Shown here piece by piece: positions 2,092 through 37,866 of a DNA stretch of 60,483 bases (position 1 is its first letter; every line of letters begins with the position of its first letter). The stretch is taken from positions 1 to 60,483 of the forward strand of contig JAFYAC010000006.1 of the NCBI GenBank assembly GCA_017540905.1, given 5' to 3'. The position numbers and the translations under genes were made by a program. Source of the stretch: Kiritimatiellia bacterium. GTDB lineage: Bacteria > Verrucomicrobiota > Kiritimatiellia > CAIQIC01 > Lenti-01. The notes beneath the pieces were generated by a model. The model had not been told where the DNA came from and did not search any database. It was given only the letters and a program-made list of their open reading frames with translations.

Positions 2092-5000
2092 TCAGCGGCT
2101 TCCGACCCGCTCGCCAGCCTGTTCGACCCAGAGCGAATTGCAGATGGCGGACCACGAGTCGGCCGCGATCCAGTACACGATGGAGCCGCCGTTCCAGTCG
2201 GCGCTCGCGACGGTCACGGCGTTGGAGAGATTGCCGTCCACTTCGATGAACACGCCGGTGCCGACGGCTTCGACATGGACTTCCATGTCGTCGGGCAGCG
2301 CCTCCGCGGCCTCGGCGAGGAACAGCGTGGCCTCGCGGTGGGCGCCGCCGTCGAGGAACCACACCTCGCGGGGGAAGTCCGTGGAGGAATAGGTGGTGAA
2401 GCCGTGCACGCGCGTGCTGTCCGCAGGCACGCCGTTCGTGCCGCCGAGGCGCGCGACGGCGGTGCGGCTCTCGGTCCGCTCCATGCGCAGGGAGAAGACC
2501 GCGCCGGTCGCCGTATCCGTGCGCACCGCGGCAACGCCGGCCTCGAAGTCCACCTGCACGTTGGTGCCGATGCCGGGACATCTCCACGTCCGCTCCTGCC
2601 CCGTCCACACCACGGGCTGGTCCGGGAACGAGGCTTCCGCGACCGTCACCTCCACCGTCTCCGAATGCACGGTGCCCGCCGCCGCGTTGCTCCACGCGCC
2701 CCATACGGCGAAGGTGCCCGCGTTCGTGAACACCGCAAGCCACGCGCCGTTCGTCTCCGACGCCCAGACGGGCACCCCGTCCTGCCACACCGCGACCGCG
2801 CCCTCCCCCGCCCCGCCGTCCGGGTGCAGGTTCCAGCGCATCGCATCCCCGGCGAGGAGATCCAGCGCGGGGGCGGGCGGATGCAGCAGATCGAACTCCG
2901 TCCACGCCACGGTCCCCGTCACGACGGCGTTCCCGCCGTCGCCGGTGACCGCGACCTCCGTCGCACCCGTCGGCGAAAGCCATGCTTCCACCCACCATCC
3001 GTCCCAGAGGCCGCGGTGCAGGACCGGCGGAGCCTCCCAGTCCTCCGCCGGAACGTGGCCGGAACGGACCGAAAGCCCTTCGTATGCCGCGAGGCCGTGC
3101 CCCTCCAGGCGGACCGGCGAGACGCAGCTCTCCGCCGGCCACCCGTCCGCCACCAGCAATTGGTCCTTGCGGAACTCCTGCCACTGCGGCACGCCGTCGC
3201 CGTTCGTGTCGTCGCCGCCCCACGCCTCCGCGCGCACGGACGCGATCCGCAGGGCCCCTCCGGCCCCCTCCCGCCAGCGCCAGCGGATGGCCACCTCGTT
3301 CGTCGCGCCGCCCGGCACCCACGGCATCATCCAGTGCGCCGTGCCCGGGACCGCGTTGGAGGTCTCCAGCACCGCCGCGCCCGACGGCACCCCGTTGACT
3401 TCCAGCTGGAGGGCATAGCGCCGCGGGGGCGCATCCGGGTCGTACGAGGCCCCTTCCACCACCAGCGCGTACACCCCGCCCGTCGCCACCGCCATCGGGT
3501 ATGCCACCGTCCCGCCCGGTCCCACGCAGCACGCCGACGTCCCCAGCTTCTCCCACGTGCCGACCGCGTGGACATACGCCGAACCGTCCGCACGCCACAC
3601 CTCCGTCGTGGTCCCGTTGAAATCCCGCACCGACGGGTCCGACCCCGCTTCCAGCACCTCCACGCCGTCCAAAACCCCGTCGTCGTCCGTGTCCGGGTCG
3701 TTCGGATTCGTCCCCGCCAGCTGCTCCTCCCAGTCGGTCAGTCCGTCCCCGTCCGTGTCCGCCAGCAGGTATTCCGTCCCGCCGGTGATCTCCTCCGCGT
3801 CGCTCAGCCCGTCCCCGTCGCTGTCCACCCGGTCCGCCGCGACGTGGGGCGTCCGGTTCGAGGACGCGATCCAGTCGTCCGTGCTGTCCGTGTCCAGACC
3901 GCAGAAGCGGCGCGCGATGGTTTCCCCGTGGCGGTTCGCGTAGGGCGGGCGGTGGTCCGCATCCACCCATCCGAACTCGTTCGTCCGCAACCCGTACGAA
4001 TTCGGGTACCCGTACAGCACCGCATCCACCACCGTCCCGTTCGTGGCGGCGAGGAACACCCCCGCCGTCTTGTCGCGGCTGCCCCCGTCGCGGTTCACCA
4101 ACAGGAAATTCGTCACCACGTCCGGCGTCGGGACCACATTGCTCCCTCCCACCAGCAGATGCCTCCCCGCCTCAATGATGTTCGTCCCGAACGTGTACAG
4201 CGTCGTCAAATTCGACGGCGCCGACCCCACCGTCCCCTTCAGCACCAGCCCCTCCAGACTCACCGGGTGCGGTGCCGAACAGTACAGCTCAACCCATTCC
4301 TTTTCATCATCCTCCCCGTCCGGATTGTACAGCACCTCGTTGATGACCACCCCGCGCGCGATGGCCCCGCCCGGCGCGCTCCAGCGGTCATCGGGAAACG
4401 TCCCCGCTTCCACTTCCTCCAAATCCGACCACCCGTCGCCGTCGCAGTCCTCCTTGTTGCTCGGCTTGACCACCACCCGCTGCGTCGCCGTCGCCGGATT
4501 CCCCGCCGCGTCGTGCACCGTCCAGACGACCACGTTCGTCCCTACCGGGAACGCCGCGGGGGCATCGTTCGTCACGCCCGTCACGGCGCAGTTGTCCCAG
4601 ACCGACGGAACGCCGAGGTCCAGCGCCACCGGGGCGAGGCAGGGACCGGCGTCGCGTTCGATGTCGTCCGGGGGCGCGAGGGTCGGCGGGAAGATGTCGT
4701 CGTTCCAGTTCATGAAGCAGCGGATGGCATCGTTCGTGTTGCCGTTCCCCGACGGGTCCGGTGCCCAACCCGGCAGAACGAGCACGTCATCCACATTGCC
4801 CGCCAGCACATACGACAGAAGGCGAGAAGGTGAAGCGTTGCCCACGACCGCGGGGGAGGCATTGCTTGCCACTACCGTTTGCAATACGTTGCCGGAACCG
4901 CGCTGCACCCCGTCCACGTAGAAATGGGCATTACGCGTCGCGTAATTCGTCGCCGGCCGCGTCCCGTCCCACGCCACCGCGACGTGGTGCCACATGCCGT

Positions 5001-16430: not shown

Positions 16431-16647
16431 CGCCGCCCCGTTGGGGCGGCGCACGGTGACAAGGTGGCCCCGGGTTGTCCAAGTTGTCTCTTTATCTCTC
16501 GCCCGCCATGCGCCAAAGCGGGCAAGAGACATTGAATTCGAGAAGTCAAGTTCTCGTATTTGGTCTAATTCGGAAACTTGAATGTTGCCATTCAAGGTGA
16601 TTTCCGGTAGATTCAAGGGCGCAGGAAGTCCAAAAGGAGACCTTTTC

Positions 16648-17787
16648 ATGTTCATTGAGCGGAAAGCGATGGCGCAATTGGCCGAATCCGTCAAGCCCGG
16701 GAGGGTCGTGGCGGTATACGGCCCCCGGCAGAGCGGCAAGACGACGCTCGTGCGGAAATATCTGAAGACCTTCCGGGGCAGGGTGTTCGCCACCACGGGC
16801 GAGGATGTCGCGACGGCGGACGCGCTCCGCTCTTCGTCGGTCGAAACCCTGCGGCAGCGGTTCGGAGATCTGGACCTGCTGTTCATCGACGAAGCGCAGA
16901 CGGTGCATGGAATCGGCCAGGCCCTCAAGCTGCTCGTCGATTCCCTTCCGGACTTGCGGGTCGTCGTCTCCGGGTCGTCGTCCTTCGAGCTGGCCGGACA
17001 GGTGGGCGAGCCGCTTGTGGGGCGCAAGCGGACCATCGTGCTGTATCCGCTGGCGTTCGCGGAAATCGCGGGGGCGGACAGCGTGGCTGCGGCCTCCGCG
17101 CGCTTGGGCGAAATGCTCCGGTGGGGAATGTATCCCGAAATCTGGCTCGCGAAGAACGAACGGGAAAGGCGCGAGGCGCTCCGGGAACTCGTCGAGGGCT
17201 ATCTGTTCAAGGATGTCGTCGCATTCGAGTCGTTGCGCAACTCCGAGAAGATCCGCCGGCTCCTGATGCTGGTCGCCTTCCAGATCGGCAAGGAGGTGTC
17301 CCTTTCGGAACTGGCGGCCAACCTCGGCATCGCGCGCCAGACGGTGGAGCGCTACCTCGACCTCCTCGAAAAGACGTTCGTCATCTACCGAGTGAACGGC
17401 TTTTCGCGCAATCTCCGCAGCGAGGTCGTCAAGATGTCGCGCTGGTATTTCAACGACAACGGCGTGCTCAACGCCGTCACGGGAAACCTGGGCGCGCCGG
17501 AAGACCGTGCGGACGCCGGGGCGCTCTGGGAGAACTGGGCCATGGCCGAACGCCGCAAGCTGCTGGCGTGGACGGGCAGCGGTGCCCGGCGCTGGTTCTG
17601 GCGAACGTATACCCAGGCGGAAATCGACAGCGTGGAGGAAGAAGACGGCCGCCTCCGGGCCTGGGAGTTCAAGTGGGGGCGCAAGACGCCCAAGGCCCCT
17701 CTTTCATGGCGCGAGGCCTATCCTGACGCCACCTTCGGCATCGTCAGTCCCGAAACCATGATTCCCTTCGTGTGCGGGGACAAGTGA
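16648..17787 (+). CDS. AAA+ ATPase, DUF4143 family (copy 6)
   Basis: 379 residues from the ATG at 16648 behind AAAGGAGA. Walker A GPRQSGKTT is at 25-33, Walker B DLLFIDEAQT near 80, and VVSGSSSFEL near 105. A helix-turn-helix (LSELAANLGIARQTVERYLD) is near 220. The C-terminal part carries AEIDSVEEEDGRLRAWEFK, a nuclease-like D...E-x-K. It ends a run of three ATPase genes each separated by a module-B block. Confidence 0.85.
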   Translation: MFIERKAMAQLAESVKPGRVVAVYGPRQSGKTTLVRKYLKTFRGRVFATTGEDVATADALRSSSVETLRQRFGDLDLLFIDEAQTVHGIGQALKLLVDSLPDLRVVVSGSSSFELAGQVGEPLVGRKRTIVLYPLAFAEIAGADSVAAASARLGEMLRWGMYPEIWLAKNERERREALRELVEGYLFKDVVAFESLRNSEKIRRLLMLVAFQIGKEVSLSELAANLGIARQTVERYLDLLEKTFVIYRVNGFSRNLRSEVVKMSRWYFNDNGVLNAVTGNLGAPEDRADAGALWENWAMAERRKLLAWTGSGARRWFWRTYTQAEIDSVEEEDGRLRAWEFKWGRKTPKAPLSWREAYPDATFGIVSPETMIPFVCGDK

Positions 17788-18824: not shown

Positions 18825-19346
18825 GGACGCGCAGAAGCGCGTCCCTCCCCGTGGAGAGCGCACCGGGAGGGTCGCGCTTCCGCGCGACCTTGTGGGAGAA
18901 CACGTCTGGGAAGCTACAGAAAAACGCAAGCCGCTGTAGGTTCCGGCTTGTTGCCACGGTGGCAACCCGAATGCATTGCGTTGGGGCCGAGCCAGCGCCA
19001 GTATGGCGCCATCAGACGGTGTTGGACATTCGGAACTTCAATCAAGTGAAACGGAAGGAACTACTTCATTGCCAACGAGCCGTGGAATGAAAATGCCGGA
19101 TAGAGCGGTTTCAAAAACAGTGTGGCCGAAAGCCGTTGTCCCACCAGCCATTTCCCACTGCGGACGCGCAGAAGCGCGTCCCTCCCCGTGGAGAGCGCAA
19201 CGGGAGGGTCGCGCTTCCGCGCGACCTTGTGGTGGAAAAACGGCTGGGAAGCTACAGAAAAACTTAAACCGCTCCAGAAATGAAAGATTTCGTGGGAGGG
19301 GCTCGAGTATCGAGGTGAAGGGCGGCGTGGGCTTGGTGTCCGGCCG
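18825..19346. repeat. Composite repeat block (modules C, H and D)
   Basis: Module C at 18825-18902 and again near 19155-19232 is a double hairpin (GGACGCG-CAGAAG-CGCGTCC and GGTCGCG-CTTC-CGCGACC types). Reversed copies are at 30608 and 37795. Module H at 18937-19110, with the palindrome TTGCCACGGTGGCAA, matches 27095-27262. Module D follows at 19276-19346. The whole 755-base stretch 18668-19422 contains no supportable gene. Confidence 0.7.
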
Positions 19347-20007: not shown

Positions 20008-21351
20008 ATGGAAAATGAAACTCAAGGACAAGCGACACCTCCGGCAATCAATCCCAAGAAACCCGGCATCTTCGGAAAAATCGGAGCGCTCTGGAAGAGC
20101 GGCATCAAAGGCAAGGCCATCTGCATCGTCGGCGTGCTGGTGATTCTGGGAATCATCGGATCGTGCGGCGACGACGAGGAGAGCGGAGGAGGCGGCGGAA
20201 GCGACTGGAAATACACCGGGGAGTATTTCGACAGCGTGTTCTCCGGTTTTCCAAAGGACGAAGGGGTCATTTACCAACATTTTCCACGTGATGTCATCTT
20301 CCTCGGGAAGGTGCTTATACCCATCAAGGTCATGCAAGCCACGAAGAAAGGCAACTTGGTTGAACTCGGAGACAACGATCGGGTCATCTGGGTGGAGACG
20401 AAAAGACGCTACGAGGACGACGAGCCGCTGGATGAGGGATACTACATCCGCCGCGGTTCCATGGAATATGAAACCGCGCTCGGAGCCGAAAAACGGGTGC
20501 CGCGCTACGTCGAAGTGACCAGCAAAGGCATTTTGGCAAAAATCCAGAAGCAAATCGAGGAAGAGAAAGCGGCTGCGGCAGCAAAAGCAAAGGCCGAGGC
20601 GGAAGCGAAAGCGGAAGCCGAGGCGGCCATGGCGAAAGCGAAAGCGGAAATCGAGGCCATGCAGACCGGGTCGCGACCTGGCGAGACAAAGACCATCACG
20701 TTGCCCGGAGGCGTGACGCTGGAGATGGTGTGGTGCCCGCCGGGAACGTTCACGATGGGAAGCAACGATGGCGATTCTGACGAGCGGCCGGTGCATCAAG
20801 TGACCTTGACGAAGGGCTTCTGGATTGGGAAAACGGAAGTGACGCAGGCGCAATGGAAGAGCGTGATGGGGAACAATCCGTCGGACCACGAGGGGGACGA
20901 CCTGCCGGTGGAATGCGTGAGTTGGGACGATTGCATGGAGTTTTGCAAGAAAACGGGCTTGGAGTTGCCGACGGAAGCCCAGTGGGAGTACGCGTGCCGT
21001 GCGGGAAGCACGGGGCCGTACGCGGGAACGGGGAACTTGGATGACATGGGGTGGTATGGCGGCAACAGCGGACGCCAGACGCATCCGGTGGGGACGAAGC
21101 AACCCAATGCGTGGGGACTCTACGACATGCACGGGAACGTGTGGGAATGGTGCGCGGATTGGTACGGTGACTACCCCAGCGGGGCTGTGACGGATCCGAA
21201 GGGGGGTTCGTCCGGGTCGTACCGCGTGGGACGGGGCGGGAGCTGGTACGACGACGCGGCCTACTGCCGCTCGGCGTCCCGCAGCTACAACTACCCGTCC
21301 TACCGGGACAACAGCCTGGGCTTCCGCCTCTCCAGGACCCTGTCGGAATGA
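20008..21351 (+). CDS. DGR target: anchored FGE/C-type-lectin-fold variable protein
   Basis: 447 residues from the ATG at 20008 behind CAGGAG. The Lys-rich N-terminus precedes a hydrophobic stretch (AICIVGVLVILGIIG, 37-51) ending in I-G-S-C53, which could be a transmembrane anchor or a lipobox. A charged region and an Ala/Lys/Glu coiled coil (about 170-215) follow. Then comes a formylglycine-generating-enzyme (SUMF1, PF03781) domain from about 227: MVWCPPGTFTMGS, IGKTEVTQAQW, LPTEAQWEYACRAG, WGLYDMHGNVWEW, and the closing GRGGSW...LGFRLSR. The last 45 residues are the variable repeat. FGE/CLec folds are the standard DGR scaffold for ligand binding. Export and surface display are inferred from the anchor and positive-inside charge. 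Confidence 0.92.
   Translation: MENETQGQATPPAINPKKPGIFGKIGALWKSGIKGKAICIVGVLVILGIIGSCGDDEESGGGGGSDWKYTGEYFDSVFSGFPKDEGVIYQHFPRDVIFLGKVLIPIKVMQATKKGNLVELGDNDRVIWVETKRRYEDDEPLDEGYYIRRGSMEYETALGAEKRVPRYVEVTSKGILAKIQKQIEEEKAAAAAKAKAEAEAKAEAEAAMAKAKAEIEAMQTGSRPGETKTITLPGGVTLEMVWCPPGTFTMGSNDGDSDERPVHQVTLTKGFWIGKTEVTQAQWKSVMGNNPSDHEGDDLPVECVSWDDCMEFCKKTGLELPTEAQWEYACRAGSTGPYAGTGNLDDMGWYGGNSGRQTHPVGTKQPNAWGLYDMHGNVWEWCADWYGDYPSGAVTDPKGGSSGSYRVGRGGSWYDDAAYCRSASRSYNYPSYRDNSLGFRLSRTLSE
21207..21335 (+). repeat. DGR variable repeat (VR)
   Basis: 129 bp that align without gaps to 23118-23246. There are 14 differences, all where the template has A: A-to-T at 21220, 21247, 21262, 21277, 21286, 21292, 21301; A-to-G at 21229, 21230, 21250, 21284, 21307, 21314; A-to-C at 21278. 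They change target residues 405, 408, 414, 415, 419, 424, 426, 427, 429, 432, 434 and 436. The last 21 bp (21315-21335) are identical and nearly A-free, the likely homing-initiation (IMH) zone. Confidence 0.95.
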
Positions 21352-21380
21352 AAACAAGTATGAACAACAAACAACCAAAG

Positions 21381-21480
21381 CGCGCGCGGTAGCGCGCGGG
21401 GCCGCCTGAGCCCCGCCGCGCCGCCGCGGCAGCGGCGCGCGCGGCGGGGCGAAGGCGGCCCGAAGGGCCGAAAATTTTCC
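21381..21480 (+). terminator. Hairpin cluster after the VR gene
   Basis: Three stems lie in 100 bases: CGCGCGC-GGTA-GCGCGCG at 21381-21398, a long GC-rich imperfect stem at 21410-21450 (GCCCCGCCGCGCCGC against GCGGCGCG...CGGCGGGGC), and GGCCC-GAA-GGGCC at 21457-21469 followed by GAAAATTTT. They could terminate the target transcript. Some DGRs also use a hairpin or cruciform just downstream of VR for efficient homing. Confidence 0.5.
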
Positions 21481-21493
21481 GACACACAACGCC

Positions 21494-22057
21494 ATGCAAA
21501 TCCGGGTCATCACGATGCGCTACAGCGAAGGCCTCCAAGGCTTCAGCGAGGACGCTTTGCGGCGGGCGACGTTCGGGCGGGAGGTGCTGGCGGTGCAGGA
21601 ACACTTCTTCACGTATGGCAACGTGCCGCATCTGGCGTTGGTGCTGACCTTGGGGGACGTGCCGGGGGAAGCGACGGGGAGCGGGGGCTTCAAGCCGCGC
21701 GACCCGAACGCCCCGAACCCGGAGGAAACCCTGCCGGAAGAGTGCCGCGGCATCTATCGCTCTCTCAAGGCGTGGCGCAACGAGACGGCGAAGGCGGAGG
21801 GCCGTCCGGCGTACGCGATTGCGCGGAACGCGCAACTGGCGGAACTGGTGCGTGCGGCACCGAAGACGCTCGCCGCTCTCAAGGAGATTCCGGGCTTCGG
21901 GGATGGTTTTTGCGAAAAGTACGGGAAGGCGGTGCTTTCGATGCTGGCGGAGGTCCCGGCAGGGGATGGTGGGAATAATGAGGGAGGGAGATGTGGGGGG
22001 GATGGAGTGGACTCCCCCGCGGGCGGGCCGCCCGCGCCCCCGGAAGAGGTGCCATGA
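21494..22057 (+). CDS. HRDC-domain DGR accessory protein
   Basis: 187 residues. The middle (about 80-153) is an HRDC domain: YRSLKAWRNETAKAEGRPAY, AIARNAQLAELV, then LAALKEIPGFGDGFCEKYG. HRDC domains bind nucleic acid, and HRDC proteins are one of the known accessory types in DGRs that lack Avd. The N-terminal 70 residues (MQIRVITMRYSEGLQGF...) are not recognised. The Gly/Pro-rich tail after 155 looks disordered. It overlaps the RT gene by an ATGA (22054-22057), so the two are translationally coupled. Confidence 0.85.
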   Translation: MQIRVITMRYSEGLQGFSEDALRRATFGREVLAVQEHFFTYGNVPHLALVLTLGDVPGEATGSGGFKPRDPNAPNPEETLPEECRGIYRSLKAWRNETAKAEGRPAYAIARNAQLAELVRAAPKTLAALKEIPGFGDGFCEKYGKAVLSMLAEVPAGDGGNNEGGRCGGDGVDSPAGGPPAPPEEVP

Positions 22058-23412
22058 GGTCTTACGGCGGGCTTTGGGAGCGGATCGTCTCGGAGGAAAA
22101 CCTCCGGGCGGCGTGGAAGCGCGTGCGGCGGGGGCACGTGCGGTCGCCGGAGGTGCTGGCGTATGGCGGGGCGGTGGAGGCCAATTTGGCGGGATTGCGG
22201 GAAGCGTTGCTGGGCGGGACTTGGCGGCCCGGTGCGTTCCGGCAATTCAAGATCCGGGACCCGAAGCCGCGCGTGATTTCCTGCGCCCCGGTCGGAGACC
22301 GGGTGGTGCACCACGCGCTTTGCGGGGTGGTGGCCCCGTTGCTGGAAAAGGGCTTCATCGCCCGCTCGTTCGCCTGCCGCGAGGGCAAGGGGGCGCACCG
22401 GGCCTGCCGTCTCGCGCGGGAAGAGGCGAAACGGCACGGGTGGTTTCTCAAGATGGACGTGCGGCGCTATTTCGACAGCATTCCGCACGGGCGGCTGCTG
22501 GACGTGTTGCTCCCGAAGTTCCGCGAGAGTCGGGTGCGCGATTTGGTGGAGCGCATCGTGCGCCATCCGGTTCCAGGGCTTCCGGAGGGGTTCGGGCTGC
22601 CCATCGGGAACCTGACGAGCCAGTGGTTCGCGAATGCATATCTGGACGGGCTGGACCACCTGCTGGCGGAAGGGGGAGGGCGGTCGTCCCCGGCCGCCGC
22701 GGCGCGCGGGGACGCGCGCCCTCCCGCCGTGCCGCCGCTGGGGGCGGGCTATTTGCGCTACATGGACGACATGCTGGTTTTCGCGGATTCCAAGGCCGCG
22801 TGCTGGGCGGTCCGCGACGCCGCCAGCGAGTGGCTTGTTCGGGAACGGGGGCTGGTGCTGAAAGACGAGGCGACCATCGTCGCGCCGGTGACGGAAGGGG
22901 TGCCGTTCCTGGGGTTGCGCATCTTCCCCGGAGCGTGGCGCTTGCGGAGATCGCGTTTCGTGCGGACGCGCCGGAAGGCGGCGGGGCGCGTCGCCGCCTT
23001 CGGGGCAGGGCGCATTGGCGGGGGGCGGCTCGCGCAGTCGCTGGCGTCGGCGGACGGGGCGGCCCGCTGGTTCGGATTCAAGGGGATTTTGAACAACGTG
23101 GCAGCGGGAGAAGGGGCTTCGTCCGGGTCGAACCGCGTGAAACGGGGCGGGAGCTGGAACAACGACGCGGCCAACTGCCGCTCGGCGAACCGCAACAACA
23201 ACAACCCGTCCAACCGGAACAACAACCTGGGCTTCCGCCTCTCCAGCATCCGGCCGGGGAAATCCCCCCCGCCTCCGACAGGATCCCATCCCGCCACGCC
23301 CGCGCCCCGCGACGTCGGGGACGAACATGCCAGACCCCGCGCGGCCAGTAGCGGAAGCGAACGCCGCGGCGGGGGAGTTTTCCGGGAAATGGAAGAGGAG
23401 CGCAAAATATGA
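22054..23412 (+). CDS. DGR reverse transcriptase with TR-encoded C-terminus
   Basis: 452 residues. Motifs in order: FKIRDPKPRVIS, RSFACREGKGAHRA, WFLKMDVRRYFDSI, LPIGNLTSQWFANAYLDGLD (182 on; the G-N-L-T-S-Q form is the DGR signature in place of the usual QG motif), YLRYMDDMLVF (catalytic YMDD at 236-239) and a motif-6-like FLGLRIFPG. Residues 356-398 are the translated template repeat (GGSWNNDAANCRSANRNNNN...), followed by a 54-residue Pro/Gly/Arg-rich tail. RT makes adenine-mutated cDNA from TR RNA. The start is fixed by the ATGA overlap with the HRDC gene; the stop overlaps the next gene the same way. Confidence 0.95.
   Translation: MRSYGGLWERIVSEENLRAAWKRVRRGHVRSPEVLAYGGAVEANLAGLREALLGGTWRPGAFRQFKIRDPKPRVISCAPVGDRVVHHALCGVVAPLLEKGFIARSFACREGKGAHRACRLAREEAKRHGWFLKMDVRRYFDSIPHGRLLDVLLPKFRESRVRDLVERIVRHPVPGLPEGFGLPIGNLTSQWFANAYLDGLDHLLAEGGGRSSPAAAARGDARPPAVPPLGAGYLRYMDDMLVFADSKAACWAVRDAASEWLVRERGLVLKDEATIVAPVTEGVPFLGLRIFPGAWRLRRSRFVRTRRKAAGRVAAFGAGRIGGGRLAQSLASADGAARWFGFKGILNNVAAGEGASSGSNRVKRGGSWNNDAANCRSANRNNNNPSNRNNNLGFRLSSIRPGKSPPPPTGSHPATPAPRDVGDEHARPRAASSGSERRGGGVFREMEEERKI
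23118..23246 (+). repeat. DGR template repeat (TR)
   Basis: 129 bp with 32 adenines, 14 of which are changed in the VR; no non-adenine position differs. Homology ends sharply on both sides (C versus G at 23117; divergence after 23246). Fourteen codons are AAC (13) or AAA (1) in the VR frame. AAC codons can mutate to 15 amino acids but never to a stop. The repeat lies inside the RT gene and is read there in the same frame as in the target. Confidence 0.95.
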
Positions 23413-23927
23413 CTGATGAAGAATTGAAGAGAACCATTAAAGAAATAGAAAAAGCGATTCTTGAACGCATAAAAAATTGGAGTATGCCATTCTCCGAGTG
23501 GACGCTCGAACGCAAGGAGAAAACCTCCTCCGGGGATTACATCGTGACGTTTTCGGGGCACTGGAAACGCGAACCCAGCAAGGCAATCCATGCCATTGGC
23601 GATGTGCTGATCCGTTTGCTCTTGGCCGGGGGGCTTGTGTTCGCGGCAAACAAGTTGTGTGGCAGCATAAAGCCCTGTCTTGAGCATGAACGCGCCCTTT
23701 CGGCACGCAACGAGCGATTGGAAGAGATTGGAACAAAGATAGAGGCGGGATTTTCCAATTTGTCCGACAAGAATGAAGAAGTCGCGGGTGCCGTCCGAGA
23801 ATGCGGGGATGGTTTGAAACAACTGTCCGCAACCGACAACGGACCTCGTGGAGTCATGGAGGTGGGGTTGTTCATGTATCCATGCCGACGGGGATGGCAT
23901 CCATACTGCCTCGGGAGGAATGAATGA
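23409..23927 (+). CDS. Single-pass membrane protein coupled to the DGR RT
   Basis: 172 residues, family not recognised. A soluble N-terminal part (KRTIKEIEKAILERIKNW...) is followed by one predicted membrane helix (about 60-80: VLIRLLLAGGLVFAANKL). A coiled-coil-like stretch comes next (ERALSARNERLEEIGTKIEAG), then a Cys-containing tail. The start overlaps the RT stop (ATGA at 23409-23412), and the stop overlaps the next gene. This implies coordinated production with the RT. Local sequence is more AT-rich than the RT gene, so it may have a separate origin. Confidence 0.75.
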   Translation: MTDEELKRTIKEIEKAILERIKNWSMPFSEWTLERKEKTSSGDYIVTFSGHWKREPSKAIHAIGDVLIRLLLAGGLVFAANKLCGSIKPCLEHERALSARNERLEEIGTKIEAGFSNLSDKNEEVAGAVRECGDGLKQLSATDNGPRGVMEVGLFMYPCRRGWHPYCLGRNE

Positions 23928-24610
23928 CCGGCCAGACCCAATCGAACGGGAAGGCTCCTGAAGACACGGAGATTGCCCTGGTGTCCATCTACAAGGGTTT
24001 TTGGAAATGCCGGGATCTGGAAATCAAGATGCTGTGGACGCGGCTGACGATGCTCGGTACATTCATGGCATTGACCTACACTGGCTATGGCGTGTTTCTC
24101 ATGAAGATTGGCGACAAGATGCCGGACTGGAACGTGTTCCATCTCCTAGCCGTGGGCATGGGGTGTTTCGGGATGCTGTTTTCCGCATTGTGGATCATGA
24201 TGGCGAAGGGGTCGAAGGCGTGGTTTGAGCAATACGAGGCGGCGCTCAAGTATTTCCAGAAGGCGCACAGGGACATCTTCGAGCAGAAAGAAGGGGAAGA
24301 AGTGGTCCTTTCGTACCTGAATTTCGACAATCACAAGGTTGCCGCCGAGCGCGAGCCGGTGGATTCTTCGCTTTTCACGGTCAAGGCGGGGCGGTTTTCG
24401 GTCTCCAAGATTCCAATCGTGATGGGGCAGATCTCCCTGGGGGGGTGGGGGCTTGTGGTGGCGGGGCATTTCTGGTGCCTGGTCGCGGGGGAGAAGTACA
24501 TGAGGGCGGTGGTGGGACATTTGGGTGTGCAAATCGCGGTCGTGGCGGTGTTGGGAACGCTTTTCACGATCTCGACAATGTGCCGCAAGGCACGGAGCGG
24601 CTTTCTATGA
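23924..24610 (+). CDS. Multi-pass membrane protein, last gene of the DGR unit
   Basis: 228 residues. Two membrane helices lie in the first half (about 38-60, LGTFMALTYTGYGVFLM; and 72-95, LLAVGMGCFGMLFSALWIMM). A cytoplasmic-looking section with WFEQYEAALKYFQKAHRDIF follows, then two C-terminal helices (about 168-188 and 198-218). The layout (paired helices, then a W...YE helix) recalls small RipA-like octameric membrane proteins, but that is only a topological resemblance. It overlaps the preceding gene by an ATGA. Its role in the retroelement is unknown. Confidence 0.75.
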   Translation: MTGQTQSNGKAPEDTEIALVSIYKGFWKCRDLEIKMLWTRLTMLGTFMALTYTGYGVFLMKIGDKMPDWNVFHLLAVGMGCFGMLFSALWIMMAKGSKAWFEQYEAALKYFQKAHRDIFEQKEGEEVVLSYLNFDNHKVAAEREPVDSSLFTVKAGRFSVSKIPIVMGQISLGGWGLVVAGHFWCLVAGEKYMRAVVGHLGVQIAVVAVLGTLFTISTMCRKARSGFL

Positions 24611-30607: not shown

Positions 30608-30892
30608 CCACCCACATGGTCGCGCGGGAGCGCGACCCTCCCGTGCGCTCTCCACGGGGAGGGACGCGCTTCTGCGCGTCCGCGAAAGAAAAGGTGAAGA
30701 CACAATGGACGGCGGCCACGCTGTTTCCGAGCCCGCTCTCGTACAGCGCAAGGCTTGTTCTTCCGCGTGTTTCCGGGGTAGGGCGGCGAGTCCCTTCGCC
30801 GCCGTGTGCCGGTCAGGCGCATGGGAAGATTCCCATTTGCCTTCGTGCCGCGTCCCTTTCGCGCGGCGGGCAGGGGACTGCCCGCCCTACCC
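30608..30892. repeat. Module C (reversed) and module E (inverted copy 2)
   Basis: Module C at about 30612-30682 (GGTCGCGCGGGAGCGCGACC, then GGACGCGCTTCTGCGCGTCC). Module E at 30776-30892 is the reverse complement of 27716-27833 with about 85% identity by eye. The gap 30588-31029 has no gene. Confidence 0.8.
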
Positions 30893-37671: not shown

Positions 37672-37866
37672 GACCCCGGAAGTCGCGCGATGCTTGTTCA
37701 GAAGGTCTTGCGCCACTTCCGGGGGTGCGGCATCCTGCCGCGCCGCTTGTCCAAGTCCATGGCGCGGCTGAAAGCCGCACCTCCCAGGGGGGGGCACCCA
37801 CCAGGTCGCGCGGAAGCGCGACCCTCCCGGTGCGCTCTCCACGGGGACGCGCTTCTGCGCGTCCGC
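37672..37866. repeat. Reversed module B and module C
   Basis: 37672-37745 is the reverse complement of the module-B hairpin unit (CCACTTCCGGGGGTGCGGCA...). 37800-37866 is module C (GGTCGCGCGGAAGCGCGACC and GGACGCGCTTCTGCGCGTCC type). The gap 37393-37987 holds no gene. Confidence 0.75.

Follow-up and report, generated by a model that had tools for sequence, protein, structure and literature searches.

A diversity-generating retroelement of a Kiritimatiellia bacterium with its template repeat in frame inside the reverse transcriptase gene

The templates of diversity-generating retroelements (DGRs) are described as intergenic in most cases (PMC8144416). In the DNA studied here, a stretch of 60,483 nucleotides from an uncultured Kiritimatiellia bacterium (contig JAFYAC010000006.1 of assembly GCA_017540905.1; the stretch at its full length is called the window), a candidate DGR at positions 20008-23412 has its template repeat (TR) inside the reading frame of its reverse transcriptase (RT). 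This raises the questions of whether the locus is a complete DGR and whether its template is at the same time a coding part of the RT gene, the latter of which matters for the way in which DGRs select and protect a template. Our analyses indicate that the locus is very probably a complete chromosomal DGR, which functions now or did so recently. As judged from its sequence, it is an HRDC-type DGR with an FGE-domain target, in which the template in frame inside the RT gene is a variation specific to one clade.

The variable repeat (VR, 21207-21335) and the TR (23118-23246), which like all the DGR parts and the two frames following them are on the forward strand, differ at 14 of 129 positions, and all 14 differences are at TR adenines (hypergeometric P 2.4e-10). 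The TR contains 32 adenines, and the 14 that are changed in the VR have become T (seven), G (six) or C (one), which makes 12 codons differ between the repeats (11 AAC and one AAA). An earlier note, made from the letters alone, had reported a 129-bp repeat with 14 differences, 32 template adenines and 12 altered target residues, and its coordinates and counts are exact. The pair was also recovered by an independent repeat search, as a 145-nt family (87%). As a control for chance, bases 1-60000 were scanned on both strands for asymmetric repeats in ten 6-kb blocks, counting only pairs within a block and using a threshold of 25. The VR/TR pair scores 114, and the other block-strands have no pair scoring at least 25. 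The annotated TR/VR pair of phage BPP-1, included as a positive control, was recovered by the same scan. A duplicated fragment of an ordinary gene that has since drifted would also give two similar repeats, and Pfam does detect an FGE tail on the RT (residues 354-396, 26.2 bits versus a cut-off of 23.3). However, the confinement of all differences to TR adenines, the DGR type of the RT and the presence of a TR/VR-type pair in 58 of 80 related named loci make this origin extremely improbable.

The RT reading frame (22054-23412) encodes 452 residues, of which residues 1-352 form the core; the remainder is a tail encoded by the TR and the RNA element described below. The protein matches PF00078 (E 9.5e-16 in Pfam), has the LPIGNLTSQ and YMDD motifs that the earlier note had read in it, and finds as its top PDB match the RT of a DGR ribonucleoprotein (8ub7), both by sequence (4.5e-42) and by fold (5.1e-24). 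The draft genome (178 contigs, 84% complete) has no other RVT_1 match. Placement in an RT phylogeny, named in the earlier note as a way to refute the DGR call, favoured that call: in a maximum-likelihood tree built quickly from 131 RTs, those of four group II introns split from the other 127 with a Shimodaira-Hasegawa-like approximate likelihood ratio test (SH-aLRT) support of 100, and the RT of the window sits with BPP-1 Brt, to which it is 34.9% identical, on the far side of this split. Upstream lies a gene for a 187-residue HRDC-domain accessory protein (21494-22057; PF00570, E 2.6e-18), the stop codon of which overlaps the RT start as ATGA.

The target gene (20008-21351) encodes 447 residues, with a hydrophobic N-terminal stretch (residues 37-55 by hydrophobicity), an Ala/Lys-rich middle and a C-terminal FGE/C-lectin domain (PF03781, E 2.9e-52 in Pfam), and the VR occupies its last codons. 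The structure of the FGE domain is predicted with a mean predicted local distance difference test (pLDDT) score of 94.7. The top PDB match is 2y3c, the Treponema denticola DGR variable protein 1, for the target sequence (3.9e-41) and again for the fold of the domain model (TMq 0.89, rmsd, the root-mean-square deviation, 1.9). These matches agree with the earlier assignment of the VR to the last codons of a gene with an FGE/CLec fold.

The RT frame does not end before the TR. It continues through the whole of it, in the same frame as that of the VR in the target gene, and stops at 23412; hence, the variable peptide is expected at the end of the RT in an unmutated copy. To place this arrangement among relatives, RT loci were drawn from 97 relatives, from named genomes (80 loci kept of 517), from 346 genomes of the class and from 387 genomes of the phylum. 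The class search contributed its 49 best places (E up to 5.1e-61), from which L219 was removed as an identical second copy; the contigs of the named loci L102, L103 and L134 are in the set under G handles instead. The resulting set has 126 RT loci including the window, with a TR found by scan or motif in 108 and none in 18. Some of the background TR calls may be false because they use a low threshold, and the TR of L157 was placed downstream in one analysis and upstream in a later one. A genome of the same genus as that of the window (G002) also has a DGR, on a 35,302-base contig.

The RT of the window belongs to a clade of 13 rows (SH-aLRT 99). Twelve of its members are informative, since the contig of L215 ends before the TR, and in 10 of these 12 the RT frame contains the whole TR and reads it in the frame of the target; in L223 it is inside but in another frame, and in L212 the RT stops within it. 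The 18 TRs from outside the clade that lie wholly within an RT frame are shifted by +1 in 10 cases and by +2 in seven, and share the frame of the target in only one (10/12 versus 1/18, Fisher P 2.2e-5). The in-frame TR as a general trait of DGRs was considered as well, and is ruled out by this count of 1 in 18.

Beyond the TR, the frame of the window enters an RNA element (23281-23374), which consists of a GGATCCCATCC box (23281-23291), a hairpin (23305-23320) and a long helix (23335-23374) that encloses an AGTAG/CGAA internal loop. This loop may resemble a loop E motif. An RNA alignment was made of 23 copies, picked for a visible motif and helix from 35 inspected. In this alignment, 90.3% of the cells of a 13-pair structure are paired, versus 65.1% after shuffling (none of 500 shuffles reached the observed value) and no more than 43.1% when slid, and 11 of the 13 pairs have changes on both sides. 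The helix of the window folds as drawn, with a z of -2.0. Several results detract from this picture of a conserved structure: of the 12 clade members, only five are in the alignment; for the window, L102 and L103, even the best helix enclosing GTAR scores low; and a longer piece of the RNA of the window is no better folded than shuffled versions of it. A search of the window found no known RNA family at Rfam gathering score, and its post-TR stretch matches no Rfam family, RT-14 included, at E up to 1. Of 15 loci searched, one (L114) has RT-14 at gathering score directly after its TR (3725-3868). The post-TR helix with an NGTAR/CGAA loop, present after the TR of many loci, seems to be more widespread than the Rfam RT-14 family. 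The covarying RNA gives a handle for finding templates on contigs that have no VR.

Because the members of the clade are related, locus counts overstate their independence, and the number of distinct lengths of the intervening segments is a better measure, although also one that assumes similar probabilities for gains or losses of one base, two bases or three. The distance from RT to TR takes nine values in the ten in-frame members, between 60 and 204 nt, all of which are multiples of three; the exceptions are 86, where the close relative L222 has 87, and 119. The junction of L212 (G190:C479) is one base shorter than that of L222, in a run of Ts, which may be a real frameshift or an assembly error. 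The distance from TR to RNA element also takes nine values, between 40 and 94 nt, and equals 1 modulo 3 in 12 of 12 clade members; it was measured with a strict motif in ten and a looser one in L211 and L221, and for L220 the strict motif gives 40, the loose one having been misplaced (54). Among 17 loci outside the clade with the strict motif, the residues 0, 1 and 2 occur 7, 4 and 6 times. In the junction between RT core and TR, the frame has no stop in 238 codons, compared with 9 and 5 in the other two frames, a difference to be read with the fact that openness influenced the choice of frame, and its codon-position G+C (0.59/0.43/0.61) is coding-like, as in the RT core (0.62/0.45/0.75). Downstream, in five of the 12 members (the window, L211, L214, L217 and L218), the RT stop and a following start codon overlap in the sequence ATGA, accompanied by a ribosome-binding-like motif; in three more (L216, L220 and L223), the stop lies within 9 nt of a start; no such proximity was seen in L213, L221, L222 and L212.

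It is possible, if somewhat doubtful, that the DGR is ordinary and its in-frame TR an accident, given that AAC-rich TRs have few stops in any frame and that G+C is high, with ten loci inheriting a single chance event. Indeed, a TR wholly inside the RT frame is common (29 of the 108 loci with a TR), mostly off the frame of the target outside the clade, and the ten in-frame loci are one clade. The codon-position G+C past the TR is not coding-like either (0.58/0.57/0.55 up to the element and 0.65/0.58/0.63 from the element on to the stop). An accident would, on the other hand, have to account for nine RT-to-TR lengths that are all multiples of three, for TR-to-element lengths that agree modulo three throughout the clade while those of the outside loci scatter, and, as far as a partly chosen frame allows, for a junction free of stops.

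The pattern of length differences suggests, at the level of sequence, that selection keeps the RT frame open through the TR in this clade. Several observations, besides the G+C values past the TR and the relatedness of the loci, pull the other way. Two clade members, L212 and L223, break the frame. Three of the ten in-frame members (L213, L218 and L222) have no VR on their contig, and their TR was placed by motif. The RT-to-TR distance is measurable in one of five sister loci, and L078, the nearest measured relative outside the clade, ends its RT before the TR. The RT tail (residues 353-452) is predicted to be disordered, with pLDDT below 50 in a model whose alignment had three tail sequences. 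A folded function for the tail encoded by the TR was therefore considered and, on this prediction, appears unsupported. Because the tail is predicted to be disordered, our best guess is that the selected feature is not the tail but translation through the template, which in several members would run up to the start of the next gene. Taking all this together, we regard the balance as even on the proposal that the TR is a coding part of the RT in this clade, that selection keeps the RT frame open, in the frame of the target, up to the structured RNA, and that translating the template belongs to the working of the element. Where a clade keeps its template in the RT frame in this way, one stretch of RNA has to serve both translation and reverse transcription. 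If the proposal is true, every molecule of the RT carries the variable peptide in its parental, undiversified form, and possible roles of the arrangement would be to gate which transcripts are used as template, to purge frameshift and nonsense changes from the template, or to couple the RT to the next gene.

Another contig of the assembly (C169; the window is contig C64) has two further VR-like copies. The first lies in a 605-residue gene with a caspase (PF00656) and an FGE domain and has 26 differences from the TR over 129 positions, of which 23 are at adenines and three elsewhere. The second, in an FGE gene that is split between frames, also has 26 differences, 18 at adenines and eight elsewhere. 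Two adjacent non-adenine differences are common to both, so the present TR has not rewritten these copies over their full length in recent times; they either stem from a common copy or were last rewritten from an older TR. The surroundings of these copies (C169:25001-45000, L028) hold a run of kinase-FGE, caspase-FGE, FGE, kinase-Sel1 and Sel1 genes.

These remote copies bear on whether the DGR still works. It could now be inactive, the VR retaining its last rewriting after homing had ended, and the three and eight non-adenine differences of the remote VRs and the split gene of the second would agree with that. Nevertheless, the VR adjoining the RT shows no non-adenine difference from the TR, and the RT, HRDC and target frames are intact, which renders an inactive element unlikely. 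The earlier note had called the DGR active or recently active; the unblemished VR fits recent activity, and that the element is active today we infer. The parts of a DGR named in that note were all confirmed. What it had overlooked are the HRDC gene, the two remote VRs, the RNA element after the TR and the position of the TR in the RT frame.

The sequence itself shows that the VR differs from the TR at adenines only, that the RT is of the DGR type, that the target has the expected fold, that the remote VRs are adenine-biased and that the RNA element covaries. These findings fit the following mechanism, in which RNA recruitment and priming, cDNA synthesis, homing and the role of HRDC are modelled on BPP-1. 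In that phage, the spacer that follows the TR is folded, and it recruits bRT-Avd and primes the synthesis of cDNA (PMC12875486); the post-TR RNA studied here may have the same recruiting and priming role. A single transcript appears to encode both HRDC and RT. The RT, presumably with HRDC in the role of Avd, would bind the structured RNA right after the TR and reverse-transcribe the TR, making errors at adenines. The resulting cDNA would then replace the VR in the membrane-anchored FGE/C-lectin target and may, in the past at least, also have replaced the VRs of caspase-FGE genes elsewhere in the genome. In the clade of this RT, the TR would additionally be read as protein, namely as the C-terminal tail of the RT.

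A hairpin with a GGTA loop and a 7-bp stem at 21381-21398, 46 nt after the VR, is a possible homing-site cruciform. Hairpins in phage DGRs are reported to have a GRNA loop and to lie 4-34 bp after the VR (PMC3240598); the loop of the window fits this description, but its distance of 46 nt is outside that range. GRNA-loop hairpins follow the three VRs of the genome at 46, 78 and 66 nt, and a look at 18 other FGE loci there revealed none. The hairpin after the second remote VR is one of 69 copies of a dispersed palindrome, and eight of nine VRs of relatives lack a hairpin, the ninth having one with a 6-bp stem. These two facts weaken the GRNA hairpin as a proof of homing sites, and as a sequence feature it is suggestive only. 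The dispersed palindrome is a 20-nt sequence resembling repetitive extragenic palindromes, with a GGAA or GGGA loop; 35 of its genome copies are forward and 34 reverse, and those in the window are at 18870-18889, 19207-19226, 30618-30637 and 37804-37823.

Two frames continue the run of overlapping frames downstream of the RT: a frame of 172 residues (23409-23927), which has no known domain and whose start overlaps the RT stop as ATGA, and a gene for an 8xMP membrane protein (23924-24610; PF24838, E 1.4e-18). Neither has a PADLOC or NCBIfam match. Farther away, beyond the DGR, are an AbiEi-type antitoxin-like regulator (PF13338, 25413-25952) and a Fic/DOC-family protein (PF02661, 57480-59000), and upstream there is an AAA_14/DUF4143 ATPase (16582-17787). 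No MoxR/vWA or STAND NTPase, the partners or fusions that mark DGR-associated conflict systems (ternary and STAND), was named among the 17 window frames scanned with Pfam, many window genes being unscanned, and the window has no tRNA. A viral origin of the DGR was considered and rejected: the 80 relatives kept of 252 from IMG/VR reach at most 41% identity, and all 146 phage records are below 60% identity (best 35.8%), which leaves room for an older transfer.

Several features of the locus have counterparts in known systems. An overlap of the TR with an end of the RT gene is already known: in group 3 of Schillinger et al. 2012, the TR overlaps either end of the RT open reading frame (PMC3521204). 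This overlap is shared by the window, where, however, the TR is wholly inside, in the frame of the target, and is kept so in the clade; the section on group 3 is silent on the frame and on its conservation. We found no description of a frame-conserved fusion of TR and RT in the open-access literature, surveyed mostly at the level of titles and the first lines of abstracts, nor a paper there on a DGR in Kiritimatiellae. With BPP-1, the locus shares a related RT, an adenine-specific TR/VR pair and a structured RNA after the TR, but BPP-1 has its TR upstream of brt and uses Avd, where the window has HRDC and a TR inside the RT frame. HRDC and MSL have both been named as DGR accessories (PMC10053308). 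The T. denticola DGR, which diversifies TvpA, has remote targets and an HRDC accessory gene that overlaps the RT and lies between TR and RT (PMC4891356). The locus has the overlapping HRDC gene, the remote targets and the target fold (2y3c) in common with it, and differs from it in the position of the TR, which is in frame inside the RT gene. In cyanobacteria, DGRs are described whose remote C-lectin targets carry a kinase or caspase-like domain as a fusion partner (PMC7517822), a likeness to the remote caspase-FGE VR gene that lies beside kinase-FGE genes in the genome of the window, although the phylum is another one and only two remote VR-like copies were found, one of them in a broken gene. 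Finally, the clade 5 DGRs of multicellular bacteria, some of them in Verrucomicrobiota, are reported to diversify putative sensors (PMC10907252). The locus adds a Kiritimatiellae bacterium with a remote caspase-fused target, which is relevant to the proposal, made in that work, of invader sensing by such targets.

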